Part shown: positions 21,801-39,800 of the stretch, in pieces
How positions within the stretch are numbered: the first letter of the stretch is position 1
Layout: each line of letters opens with the position of its first letter
Source of the DNA: Aldrovandia affinis
Taxonomy: Eukaryota > Chordata > Actinopteri > Notacanthiformes > Halosauridae
DNA length: 64,000 nt
Direction of reading: 5' to 3'
NCBI GenBank assembly: GCA_029706075.1
Contig: JAINUG010000011.1
Location: 3,740,001 to 3,804,000 of the forward strand
Translations under genes and position numbers: made by a program
The notes under the pieces: model-generated
The model's input: the letters and a program-made list of their open reading frames with translations, nothing else
The model's database searches: none
Told to the model about the DNA's origin: nothing

Positions 21801-24800
21801 AGTGTGAGGGATTAACAGCTTGAGGGGAAGAGGGGAGAAAAAACCCTCCAGACAGCGACACTGGCTGTGTTGACGTCTGACTTCATTTATGTTTGAAAAC
21901 AACGTGTGTAATTATGTTGGATGTTGGAGCTCCTCATATTTAGAAGGCAAGGCTATGTTAGCAGGGAGTGAAAATAACACCAATGATTGCTAAGAGAATA
22001 GCCCCCATTTACACTCAGAGCAACTAGGTCCAAACGTTCTTTCTAAAAACGCTGTCAAAATAAAGACACACACTGACATCCCCTCCCCACAGAGAACTCC
22101 ACTTCGAATCAAATCTGGAGGTAAAGTTAGTTTGGTTACTTATTTTACCGAAAGATTTAATTTGAGAAAATATACGTCCAACATTCAAAAAAACTAAAAA
22201 AAATACTCTAGCACTTAAAAAACAACAACTTATGAATACATATGGAAACTACCCCAGCCCCCCACATTCATGAGGTTTTCTTATTCACAGCAAACCAAAA
22301 TTCTGAAATCATGGTAAGCTACAGCATGTTCTTTTTTATTTTTCTGTGCTGGTATCAGCCTTTGTAGAACATAATGTAGAGTACAAGGATTTCAAGAAAA
22401 TCACCTTATCTCAATGTCACCCATTCAAATCCAACCTCACAAAAACTAAAAAGAAAACCCTTTGAATTATTAGTTACATATTACAAAACAAGAAAGAACA
22501 AAAAACTAAATCTGAACAACCTGACCTCGACTCTACTCAAACCCACCTTCTTTGTCATGGCATTGGCTTCGATCTTTAAAGAAAGAGAGAAGAAAAATCT
22601 GAGTTAAGTGGCCCTTTCCGATTTCCCTTTCTCAGAAACAGGTAAGATTTAGTAAATGGCGTGGGTCACATTAGGGTACATTGGGGATCAGGAGACTCGG
22701 CCCTGGGTTTGAATTCATTTGTGCCTCGACTGCAACAGAACCTCAACATGGGGCCAGCTGAACCCAATCTGGAGCCAAGCCTCATAATCAAACCTCCACA
22801 GCTCGCCTCAGGTCCTGTCGCAGTCGAGACACAGAAACACAACCGACTACCTCTACAGGAGCAAATCAGCTGTCACCTGATCTAAAAGTGGATTGACGAT
22901 TGGTTCCACCTTACAGTTCCTCCTCCTGATGTCATGGCAACGGGCATTTCTTGTGTGTGTGCATGTGGTCCCCCCCCCCCCCCAAAAAATCGCAATCGAT
23001 CATCACTAACACCGATAGGACACATGACCCTGTTCGGAAGATTCTGGAAATTGTTAATTAATACTGATCCAATTTTAGTGGATTAAGTACTCAAATCTCC
23101 TTGTACTTTAAGGCTTCGGACAGATTGCTATTTACATCTGCTGCCATTTCGCTGTGGATGTCTGCAGGCTTTTAAGGGCAGAGTTTGTCTGACCCCTGAT
23201 GCTAAAAGGAGAGAACCCGACACCCTTGTGGCAATTAAAGCCCACAGTGAGGAACTGGAAAGAAAGAGGGACAGAGGTGCTACAGACAGCTTGTCATAAA
23301 GCACTGGGAGGTGGGGGCGGTCGAAAACACGGAGGCAGGGAGGTCTACACTGTGGCACATCACACGACACGAGACACAAACCCACCTTATTTTCCTCGTC
23401 TTTGGACTAATGATGAGCAATATGTCCAAACAGAAAAAAAAGACAGATAGACAAAACTTAAGAGGGGGTAGGTCTTCTGAAAGGGCATTACTAATCTGGT
23501 CTAAACTGCTAAGCTACACACTGAGCGTAATGATCATCCACAGTTTATTATCTTTCAAACACATTCCAATAAAATACCATTTCATAGCATTCAGAGGATA
23601 TTTTTGCTTATTTCTTATACTTTTGTTTATTTTCCGTTTCTTGTTTATTTATAACTTTATGTATGTTTTTCTCCACGTGAAACGCCCAATCGTATTTTAA
23701 GCCCCGCTCACTCAAAGCCCCGCTGTCAATTTGAGAGAGCGTAGACAAGCACGCTTTCTCCTCTGAAATATTTGATGTCAGTCGCTGCTTCGTTTCCCAC
23801 TGCAGTCTACATGTTAAGTTTGCACAGACATGAGCTGGAGGAAGACACTTCATGTGCAGATTTACACTGGCAGACTGTATGCGCCCGATTGACCAGTAGG
23901 GGTCACTGGTGTGTGATGAGACACGGACAACCCGGCCGGCTTAATTTCCTCCCTCCTTTGGCATCACGACCACCATGGGGCTCATCCACACACTAGAACA
24001 GTGCCTTCACGGGATGAATCACCTTTTATATTATTTATTGCAGCTGAATTAAGTGTTGCTGATAAGATGTGGGTACTGCCACCATCACAAACTCCACCTC
24101 ATGCTCTCAGTCAGTCTGCATATCTTTAGGGAGAGCTGGGCTAATATAGTGGAAAAACGCAGCCAAATGAAACCATTACTCCTGGCGAAAGTTCCACTCA
24201 ATCCACCGATACATTTGTATTTCTCCTGACATAATTGGGTCAGGTCTGAACACAGTGGCATTAATGGCAACTATTTATTTTATGACAACGTTGTCAATTT
24301 AGTTTGTCGCCCATACCAGCGCACGTGTTTCACCTCTATCAGTGTACATTCCACTACAAAGCATTCACGTGAATTTGCCACGCTCTGTTTCCAGCCAGTC
24401 TCTGTCCAGCACCTAAAAACAAATCTGACTAAACGACGTGAAGGGCCCATGGGGAGAAACCCATGGAGGCATCGTCAAGAGCCGAAAATCGTGGAAGAAA
24501 CAGACCAAACCAAATGTGTGAGCCATGTCTTGGTTCATTTGTTACTCAAACATTAAAATGAGTGAATTCCCTCTGCACCTTGCTCAATCCTTAATATATA
24601 TATCTATTTGTTTATTTGTCAGGGACACGCATTGTTACAATATTAAAAAACAAGCATTAGATGCATTGCATTGTGTTTATAGCCAAATGCAAATTTCCAA
24701 CACCTGTATGTGGATCAATGACATGACGTGCATTTTTTGTGTTCGAAGCCATTATCTTTTTTAAGATCTTTTTAAATAAATACATATAATATATCAAATT

Positions 24801-36800: not shown

Positions 36801-39800
36801 CCCCAGCTTGTGCCCCTTCACACAGGCTTCTGCTAGGTAAAGGAACCATGTCTAAACTACTACAATACTACACCATACTCTAGAGCTGCCCTGCAGTAAT
36901 ACCCACCATGGCATCATCACCCTCATCATCAGTGATTGGCTAATCCAGCCAGAGGCAGGAAAAGGAGAGATACAGCTCAGTACTCAAGCGACATTGACAA
37001 GCTCCTAGTACCGTATGTCAGAAAAATGTTACCAGTGTACAAACCATCGATACATCATTAAACTTCAATGAGACAGCAAATACTGGTGTCTCTAAATGAC
37101 AATGCTACTTGCTAAACAGCTATACCATCCTACATTAGAACTGCTAGAAATGCTGTAGATACATTATCGCTACAAAAGTAGAACGTATATAGTACAAGTA
37201 CAGAGAGTTGCTAACTGCAAACTCGTAGGAGAGGGAATCCACCACTAAACGATGCACACACCCACCTCTTCCTCATAATCCTCTGGCTCGTCTTCATCAT
37301 CAAGCTTAAGGCAAGCAGGGGAATGAGAGAATTTAGACTGACTCACACACCTGGCTACTCACCCCTGGTCCTGGGGAATCACAGGTTTTTTGGCTATGAT
37401 TTTGCACTCAAACTTAGATACAACTAGTCCACATTGGGTTGACCTAATCAATCCCATCTATACATTTGTGTTTTTCAAGAGAGCTGGGAAAAACCTGCTT
37501 GAAATGGGCTCCACCAGGACCAGATTAGAGAAGCCATGTGTATCTATGTACTGCATGGAAACAGGACGACAGAGAAGACAACACATTACTGATCCATTTA
37601 ATCAGAGACTCAGCCTAATCAAAGCTCATTACGACCGCCACTTTGCCACACTTTAATAACCCACCCAACGGACCTCACTTCAAACCACTGGCTTCTTGAT
37701 TTTTTATTGCTATGCTCTGTTTATCATTATTTAATTAAATGAGAGGCAGTGTACAGTGTGACACAGCGGCCAGTAATGCTGGTGATGGCTTGTAGGCAGG
37801 GAGCTGAGGGGAGGAGTTATCAGGGTGGAACTATGTAGGGATGTAGAGTTATGAGAGGTGAGAGCTGTGACAGGATAAAATATACAGGGGTGGAGCTAGT
37901 TTGGGTGAGAGCAGTAATAGGATGAAGTTATATTGGGGTGGAGCAATGTTTGGTCAGAGCTGTAATAGGATGAAGTTATACTGGGGTGGAGTTATGTTGG
38001 GTCAAAGCTGTAATAGGATGAAGCTATATTGGGGTGGAGCTACAGGGGTGGAGCTATGTTGGGTCAGAGCTGTGATAGGATGAAGCTATATTGGGGTGGA
38101 GTCCTACACCTACCCTCTCCTCCTCTGCAGCCATCTGAAGCGAAAAGCAAAAAAATAGAAGAAAATACACAGAGGTTATGGACTATGCCTGAATTATGCC
38201 TCCCATCGACCAGAGGCTCCTCCCCTTACTTCACAATGCATCGGCACAGATGGGCATTGCCCCCAACAAGCTGACCCACACATTATAAAAGCACTGACTC
38301 TACGCAGGCTGCTCATTGGTCAACCTCTCTCATCACACATGACTTCCTACAAAACCCCTACAAAATCCAGCTCATTGCTGGCATGCAGCATTCACAAATC
38401 CATTAGACAAGGGAAACATTTTCCTCAAAGGTCTTCCAGTGTAGCCAATAGTATGGGCAGCCCTCAGCATTCTCCTGAGGTGATTTAGAAGAAGACCCTT
38501 CAGTAAACAGCAGTTATTCCTGGATAGATATCTGACCAGACTGAGGTAAAAAATAAAACTATGGTTCATGGCAGAGAACCAATGAATCACGGTCCTCTCC
38601 AAGTCCATCAAAAGGTTTTGTCATGGTGATCACTCACCTGTGTGGCACCCATGGACTCGAACATCTTCTCCAGAAGGACTCGGAGCTGTTGGACGTTGTT
38701 CATGAGGACACAGGGCTGAGGAAGAGAGAGAGAGAGGAAGAAAGAGAAAGACAGAGAGACTCAGTCACACCTGAACACCAGCACACTCCAATATATTCAA
38801 GCAGCTCCAGAAAGAAACTAAAGCACATACATTTATGCGACTAGTCAATCGAACTACAATGTAATTTATGGGGAAAAAAATGTATGGGAATTTTTTTTTA
38901 ATGGGTAATTTTTTCTGCATTTATTACAAAATATTCTACCTAAAATTATACAATTCTTTGTGAGAACTGGAAATAAACAATTGTAGTTGTAATATAAAAA
39001 AATGTGTTTCTAGCATTTATAAGCATTTTGCATTGCAGTTATACTAGCTGAAGATTCTATGGTGGGAGTAAGCACAGCTGACACATCTCTCTGACACATC
39101 CGCCCATCAGGGTACTTACAATCTTCTCCTTCTCACAGTAGATGGGGAAACTCTTGGTCAGGATGGCACAATACTGCAGTAGCACTTTGGTGATGGTCTG
39201 TCAGAAAGACCAAAAACTCATCTCAATCAAAGACAAACACAACATCTTCACCCAAAGCTACAGGTGACTGCCAAAATAAAGTAAGCATTTGAGTAAATGA
39301 GGGATACAAAGTATATTGAAAATAGGTGCTTCCATTTACCTGCCATGGTTTAGGTCCATTCAACCACTTAGAGGGCAAGGTAAACGGCAATAAATACAAA
39401 GCCATTCAGTGAAATCACTTCCATCAGCATTTCTTTCCTGATGGGAGTGAGACAGCTTTTTCCACTACCATCAATAAAACACCAAATGATGGAATTTCTT
39501 CTGGTAGAATGGTGTTGCATTCCTCCTCCAGTTCTAGGCACTTGTAGAATCTATGCCAAGGTGCATTGAAGCTGTTTTGGTGGCTTATGGTGGCCCAATG
39601 CCTTATTAAGACACTTTATGTTGGTGTTAATTTTATTTTTGCAATTACCTGCATATACATGACAGCCTATACATACTGTATATGCGCACACTTGAAATGC
39701 TGTTTATCAGCAATTTATTTTTTAATGAATTGCACCTAATTGCACTAAATTGTATTTATATAGCATCTAAAAATACAGTGGTCAAACAAGACATGACAAA

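Follow-up and report, generated by a model that had tools for sequence, protein, structure and literature searches.

Neuronal microexons have mostly been studied one at a time, and those controlled by SRRM3/SRRM4 usually number one or two per gene. The alternative exons of TNNT3 are small combinatorial cassettes that encode an acidic hypervariable segment. Here, we present an analysis of an array of 13 microexons (m1 to m13) in a single intron of an unc13b gene (unc13ba type) of the fish Aldrovandia affinis. The gene lies in a stretch of 64,000 nt (contig JAINUG010000011.1 of assembly GCA_029706075.1, positions 3,740,001 to 3,804,000), which we refer to as the window and whose own numbering is used throughout. 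We conclude with high confidence that the array is real, conserved, older than the duplication of unc13b, and variably included in the gene models of other fish. In other words, 13 microexons of conserved order lie at the core of a protein required for synaptic vesicle priming.

TNNT3 exons 4-8 likewise form a run of alternative exons at one place, mostly of one phase class (PMC2447309). They differ in that TNNT3 has exons 4-8 plus a foetal exon on the N-terminal side of a muscle protein, whereas unc13b has 13 units inside the folded rod of a synaptic protein. The unc13b units behave as troponin-T-type cassettes, being small, of the same phase, and skipped singly or in groups in the models of other species; we claim no kinship. 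Schistosome micro-exon genes (MEGs) also contain arrays of very small symmetrical exons, the alternative splicing of which gives many similar proteins (PMC4350168). There, however, small exons make up most of the coding region and the products are found in secretions, whereas the microexons are only 13 of the 38 modelled exons of the window gene and 327 of about 3510 nt, which sets it apart from a gene of the schistosome type. Compared with the neuronal microexons regulated by SRRM3/SRRM4 (PMC10987577, PMC12626424), unc13b differs from the typical gene in having 13 in a row.

Among genes encoding MUN domains, mouse Unc13b has a single 6-nt microexon, others also have microexons, and microexon choice changes synaptic function in Caenorhabditis elegans; unlike the array described here, the 9-nt exon of the worm lies between the CaM and C1 domains (PMC12287369). 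Loop 1408-1452 of the MUN domain of rat Munc13-1 is poorly conserved, alternatively spliced, and flexible (PMC5344669), but it is not an array of this size, and the unc13b site lies about 118 residues earlier by our arithmetic. In mouse photoreceptors, an Unc13b exon depends on MSI1 (PMC7948980, section 9, which does not give its position in the gene). An earlier note on this DNA, made from the letters alone, knew of no description of such an array, and we likewise found none in the open-licence full-text literature on UNC13B/Munc13, unc13ba/unc13bb, and microexon arrays. The term unc13 is absent from the main text of two zebrafish microexon papers (PMC12626424, PMC13281805). MicroExonator reported 1882 zebrafish brain microexons, which are in its supplement (PMC7821500), and some array units could be among them. 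Moreover, unc13ba is among the genes of a term in which teleost conserved noncoding elements are enriched (PMC11034925); some of these elements could be unannotated unc13ba microexons.

Thirteen phase-0 microexons lie between adjacent MUN-domain exons

We modelled the gene by spliced alignment to a Munc13-1 sequence, the MUN part of which matches PDB chains round the junction. The model comprises 25 ordinary exons, from after the C1 domain to the stop codon, and encodes 1061 amino acids with no internal stop; the 5' part of the gene, with C1, falls outside the window, and the first exon of the model has no fixed acceptor. In Pfam, the modelled protein gave MUN (700.9 bits) and C2 in two stretches, in the domain order of Munc13. 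In a tree of 34 rows, which covers unc13b but not unc13a/c, takes names from the records, and has one very long branch (P0060), the window protein falls in a clade of 14 rows (support 100/100) together with insert-bearing percomorph and otophysan unc13b proteins. The exons e16 and e17 are adjacent MUN-domain exons joined in phase 0, and the intron between them is 17.7 kb. The letters MGG-K|ELD in the earlier note are the mammalian form of this junction; here, MGATQ is followed by LDPEAA.

The features are as follows; "Siniperca" denotes the insert of Siniperca chuatsi unc13b and "duplicate" the second unc13b gene of the same genome, both described below.

12535..63410, minus strand: unc13b gene (unc13ba type), from its spliced open frame, Pfam domains, and tree position
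38638..38715, minus strand: e16, ends in MGATQ, phase 0, aligned to Munc13-1 PDB chains
38114..38134, minus strand: m1, 21 nt, MAAEEER; Siniperca LTDEEER; duplicate MAIEEAM
37266..37304, minus strand: m2, 39 nt; Siniperca LENEEEPEEFDEE; duplicate MAEEVEPVEENEE, also 39 nt
36907..36939, minus strand: m3, 33 nt; Siniperca AISDNEGEDDM; not found in the duplicate
35395..35415, minus strand: m4, 21 nt, SDDLETK; Siniperca SEESK; duplicate SVDSEAK, 21 nt
34272..34301, minus strand: m5, 30 nt; Siniperca SGCSDSEESE; not found in the duplicate
33117..33143, minus strand: m6, 27 nt, LDNKEKEEK, donor GTTTGT; Siniperca VDNKDKEKK; duplicate FDNKKNAEK, 27 nt
30884..30904, minus strand: m7, 21 nt, LENDEEK, donor GTTTGT; positional counterpart in Siniperca DESSAYDDSEEEQEK, the weakest match of the array with 3 identities; not found in the duplicate
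30317..30331, minus strand: m8, 15 nt, LDKEK; Siniperca LDKEK; duplicate FDKNN, 15 nt, a weak match
30075..30095, minus strand: m9, 21 nt, AESREDK; Siniperca SQSKKEK; not found in the duplicate
29538..29567, minus strand: m10, 30 nt; Siniperca AEKKDKEKQ; duplicate AENKDKEKQ, 27 nt
27662..27682, minus strand: m11, 21 nt, AENKSKQ; Siniperca EDTKSKQ; duplicate VDIRYKQ, 21 nt
23386..23406, minus strand: m12, 21 nt, SKDEENK; Siniperca SKEEVNK; duplicate SKEMENK, 21 nt
22547..22573, minus strand: m13, 27 nt, IEANAMTKK; Siniperca TEATAATKK; duplicate IEASTKK, 21 nt
20851..20939, minus strand: e17, starts with LDPEAA, phase 0, aligned to Munc13-1 PDB chains

All 13 microexons that the earlier note had proposed were located in the e16-e17 intron, on the minus strand between 22547 and 38134, with lengths of 21, 39, 33, 21, 30, 27, 21, 15, 21, 30, 21, 21, and 27 nt (327 nt, or 109 codons, in sum). 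Each of the 13 has AG before it and GT after it, is in phase 0, and is free of stops. The description of the donors in the earlier note as mostly consensus is fair, with the weak GTTTGT in 2 of 13 (m6 and m7); poor scores are also found for two acceptors, those of m5 and m12. At m10, the acceptor is a tandem AGCAG (29563-29572), the second AG of which would give 27 nt and nine residues, the percomorph length. The first five units are strongly acidic (48 residues, net charge -22), while m6 to m13 are mixed in Glu and Lys (61 residues, net charge -4). The m5 peptide is identical at 9 of 10 residues to the percomorph family sequence SGCSDSEGSE, and it resembles a casein kinase 2 type site.

An origin of the units by tandem duplication of one exon is possible, the pair scores (at most 26) lying barely above the 95% level of random intron pairs (20). 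With their flanks, m9/m11, m6/m7, and m6/m8 are similar, at scores below the 99% level of random pairs (146, a level inflated by repeats).

Charge bias, not splice signals, sets the microexons apart from chance

Splice scores were derived from the 24 introns of the gene itself, with loose thresholds set at the weakest of the 13 microexons. At these thresholds, the sense strand of the array intron yields 75 candidates that are open and in frame, 13 of them the microexons, and its antisense strand 41; the other introns of the gene (30.0 kb) hold 78. At a combined score of at least 12, 13 sense candidates remain, 10 being microexons, versus two antisense. Splice signals by themselves are thus not decisive and do not prove the 13 microexons. 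The charge bias, in contrast, is decisive and settles that they exceed chance. Charged residues make up 64 of 109 (59%) in the microexons versus 12-18% in the control candidates (57/463 in the other sense candidates of the array intron, 70/392 in antisense candidates, and 108/683 in the other introns). In 20000 draws of 13 among 172 controls, none attained the charge share of the microexons, the highest reaching 0.32. It could still be argued from the numbers of candidates at loose thresholds (75 sense, 41 antisense, 78 in other introns) that chance AG...GT pairs have been assembled and that no exons exist. However, the units recur, with their order kept, in independent proteins and in the duplicate gene, by which this reading is already refuted; we give it practically no weight.

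The units are conserved in order in other fish and in a duplicate gene

Conservation was assessed on proteins of other species and on the duplicate gene of this genome. Residues 640-840 of our assembled protein served as the query of a protein search, from which we examined the best 120 of 580 matches. The top 27 span 96-100% of the query stretch at 51-65% identity. Units m1 to m13 pair one-to-one and in the same order with percomorph unc13b models, e.g. that of S. chuatsi, with the insert of which 66 of 109 residues are identical. Against six chosen fish inserts, the window insert scored 218-320, and the maxima over 2000 random microexon orders each were 171-227, below the observed score for every one of the six. 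Among the 120 listed proteins, 50 were parsed with an insert of at least seven residues (both duplicate types), 65 without, and five were unparsed; among these five, an insert is present in one and absent from three, the last being unresolved. All 13 slots are filled in seven listed proteins from six species. The inserts of P0025 and P0038 look like model errors. A search with the insert nearly alone gave one match of 545 candidates, for which we guess a composition filter to be the cause.

The listed A. affinis protein (P0028) equals the window protein across 1058 columns, yet it skips all 13 microexons; annotation can thus miss a whole array.

The same genome (1.22 Gb) contains a second unc13b gene on C480, with a corresponding intron of similar length (about 17 kb). 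Over seven exons of this gene, identity is 94-97% to the b-type copies of Anguilla, Megalops, Conger, Gymnothorax, and Scleropages, versus 84-86% for a-type copies (window, Anguilla, Albula, Megalops, and Scleropages; 84% for the window). Percomorph rows are lower on both sides (86.8% for Solea b and 76.4% for Siniperca a). The C480 intron holds an ordered chain of nine units that are counterparts of m1, m2, m4, m6, m8, m10, m11, m12, and m13, and m1, m2, m4, m6, m8, m11, and m12 are of equal length in the two genes. With window peptides alone, this chain scored 137, versus 15 for the antisense strand and at most 121 for 200 permuted orders. The corresponding introns of two other unc13 paralogues, C1911 and C613, which we assume to be unc13c, gave chain scores of 0 and 8, the C613 stretch of 40 kb containing 2500 N. 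Because the duplicate holds ordered, similar units at the same junction, the array predates the unc13b duplication, unless gene conversion spread it. Since both copies, a and b, are present in elopomorphs as well as in osteoglossomorphs, the a/b split is older than the divergence of these groups and fits the teleost genome duplication. Aligned as whole inserts, b-type sequences of other fish match a-type ones weakly and unevenly, shuffles attaining the observed score in 0-376 of 1000 cases over 12 comparisons; the duplicate of this genome provides the stronger test.

At this junction, the b-type models P0041, P0044, P0036, and P0032 (Solea, Paralichthys, Clupea, and Siphateles) have different acidic inserts, 64-77 residues long.

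The earlier note had staked the array on conservation in related fish, and ordered counterparts were found in both fish proteins and the duplicate gene. The same observations bear on whether the units are splicing noise, i.e., charged, purine-rich (GAA/AAG-rich) decoy exons that are weakly recognised and functionless. Purine-rich sequences serve as exonic enhancers, and the Glu/Lys bias could arise from splicing needs; in addition, the loop is modelled as disordered (see below) and insert-free models are common. Order and frame are kept one-to-one, however, both between this elopomorph and percomorph fish and between the two duplicates, and 66/109 residues are identical to Siniperca, making noise an improbable account.

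Beyond ray-finned fish, we compared the best 120 of 1793 tetrapod protein matches. Three models of Alligator sinensis (P0229, P0230, and P0232) have a charged insert of 11 residues, TQDAEEKEAAD, directly after MGGKE and before LDPEAS. Of the remaining 117 listed proteins, one was unparsed, and none of the others showed an insert of at least three residues at the junction. Tetrapod matches of lower rank may bear inserts, too.

Inclusion varies among gene models, and acceptors suggest a probable neural program

The earlier note reckoned with 2^13 forms in principle. The fish models examined carry all or many units, in some cases small subsets (Channa, Collichthys, and Myxocyprinus), and in many cases no insert. 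We chose 11 pairs of models within species. In each of the 10 pairs that were parsed, the two models are distinguished by one block of whole microexons, which is a single unit in eight pairs and several in two. The block is m7 in Maylandia, m2 in Paramormyrops, and m6, m7, or m13 in Amphiprion (five non-independent pairs among five models). In Solea, it is m6 in one pair, two units in another, and seven in a third. The blocks fit the exon borders read from the window DNA, some borders being ambiguous by one Lys. These gene models of other species suggest that single units are skipped separately. A mutually exclusive use was rejected: in a Dscam-type array one unit is chosen per cluster, whereas models here hold up to all 13 units together.

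All 13 microexons are 15-39 nt long and multiples of three, within the length class of SRRM3/4-type microexons (up to about 51 nt, multiple of three). TTGC occurs within 20 nt of the acceptor in 8/13 microexons versus 1/24 ordinary exons (Fisher 2.5e-4), and in six of these eight acceptors TGC begins 11-13 nt upstream of the exon. The donor GTGGGT is found in 7/13 microexons versus 1/24 ordinary exons. As judged from these sequence signals, the window gene is likely subject to a neural microexon program driven by SRRM3/SRRM4 via UGC at the acceptors, and neural inclusion of the units is likely.

The same signals would fit an array that is real but used in a nearly all-or-none manner, one tissue (e.g. 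retina or a neuron class) including almost all units and the rest skipping them. Joint control predicts a common donor (GTGGGT, 7/13 versus 1/24) and TGC at a set distance (11-13 nt in 6/8), and the top 27 listed models are rich in units while 65/120 carry none. On the other hand, models of Amphiprion, Maylandia, Solea, and Paramormyrops drop single units, and those of Channa, Collichthys, and Myxocyprinus hold small subsets; this counterargument is weak because gene models can stem from incomplete reads. We regard nearly all-or-none use as quite possible, though not the reading we favour.

The insert is predicted to form a disordered charged loop on the MUN rod

By our arithmetic, the insert falls close to residue 1289-1290 in rat Munc13-1. 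In an AlphaFold2 model of a 699-residue Garra protein carrying an insert of 84 residues, the stretch 381-460 has a pLDDT of about 25-39; it is flanked by helices 353-374 and 466-492 and includes one short helix (382-388). A fold search with this model gave Munc13-1 MUN as the top match. Based on the model, the insert is predicted to be a disordered charged loop.

Altogether, the best explanation, to which we assign a probability of roughly 0.8, is a conserved cassette array, probably under a neural program, that may encode a priming-tuning loop. According to this model, the teleost unc13ba intron would be a cassette array of 13 phase-0 microexons, and units that are spliced in would add up to 109 residues to one turn between helices of the MUN rod, giving a disordered charged loop; skipping all units would give a plain, mammal-like rod. 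We are less sure of how the loop might act. It may tune vesicle priming through its length and charge, either by binding basic partners or by repelling or screening acidic surfaces of membranes and SNAREs, and m5 may be a phosphorylation switch; electrostatic tuning of priming is the less certain part of the model. The change of SNARE, membrane, or calmodulin-like contacts put forward in the earlier note is likewise hypothetical.

Several observations weigh against this explanation. (i) In the models of mouse, human, chicken, Xenopus, and coelacanth, e17 directly follows e16, and the same holds for the listed models nearest to the window (Anguilla, Albula, and Megalops), which have no insert. 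(ii) In the intron of the duplicate on C480, m3, m5, m7, and m9 were not found, and gene conversion between the duplicates could mimic shared ancestry of the units. (iii) The isoforms compared are mostly NCBI predicted models rather than RNA reads. (iv) Plain TGC (-20 to -4) occurs in 9/13 microexons versus 6/24 ordinary exons (p 0.015), the TTGC form having been selected post hoc, and, by eye, just 1/8 printed acceptors of the duplicate have TGC within 20 nt; SRRM3/4 control is therefore likely rather than settled. (v) The Garra model is poor overall, with a mean pLDDT of 51, and for this reason only its local picture is used.

On a wider scale, we tentatively propose that in ray-finned fish, since before the teleost duplication, neuron types choose subsets of the 13 microexons and so would grade release probability from one gene via loop length and charge, the single crocodilian exon being a remnant or a precursor; we hold this scenario to be possible rather than probable. 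Because insert-bearing models occur in the breedable Amphiprion, Maylandia, and Oryzias, how far splicing grades synaptic strength is directly testable. The system also makes it testable how a microexon array arises and persists after gene duplication.

Repeats in and near the array intron

By eye, the array intron contains a stretch between m6 and m7 (31800-32890) with the look of a worn Tc1/mariner-type transposon, a long palindrome-like inverted repeat (25880-26075), and long CA microsatellites (27195-27545). Elsewhere in the gene, the intron after exon 40915-41058 contains tandem repeats (at about 40540-40870) that, as judged by eye, are copies of the 3' end of this exon and of its donor. 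We considered these repeats as alternative exons and set them aside, since by eye they seem to repeat in tandem the exon end together with the donor and intron sequence; they are probably a minisatellite that captured the exon border.

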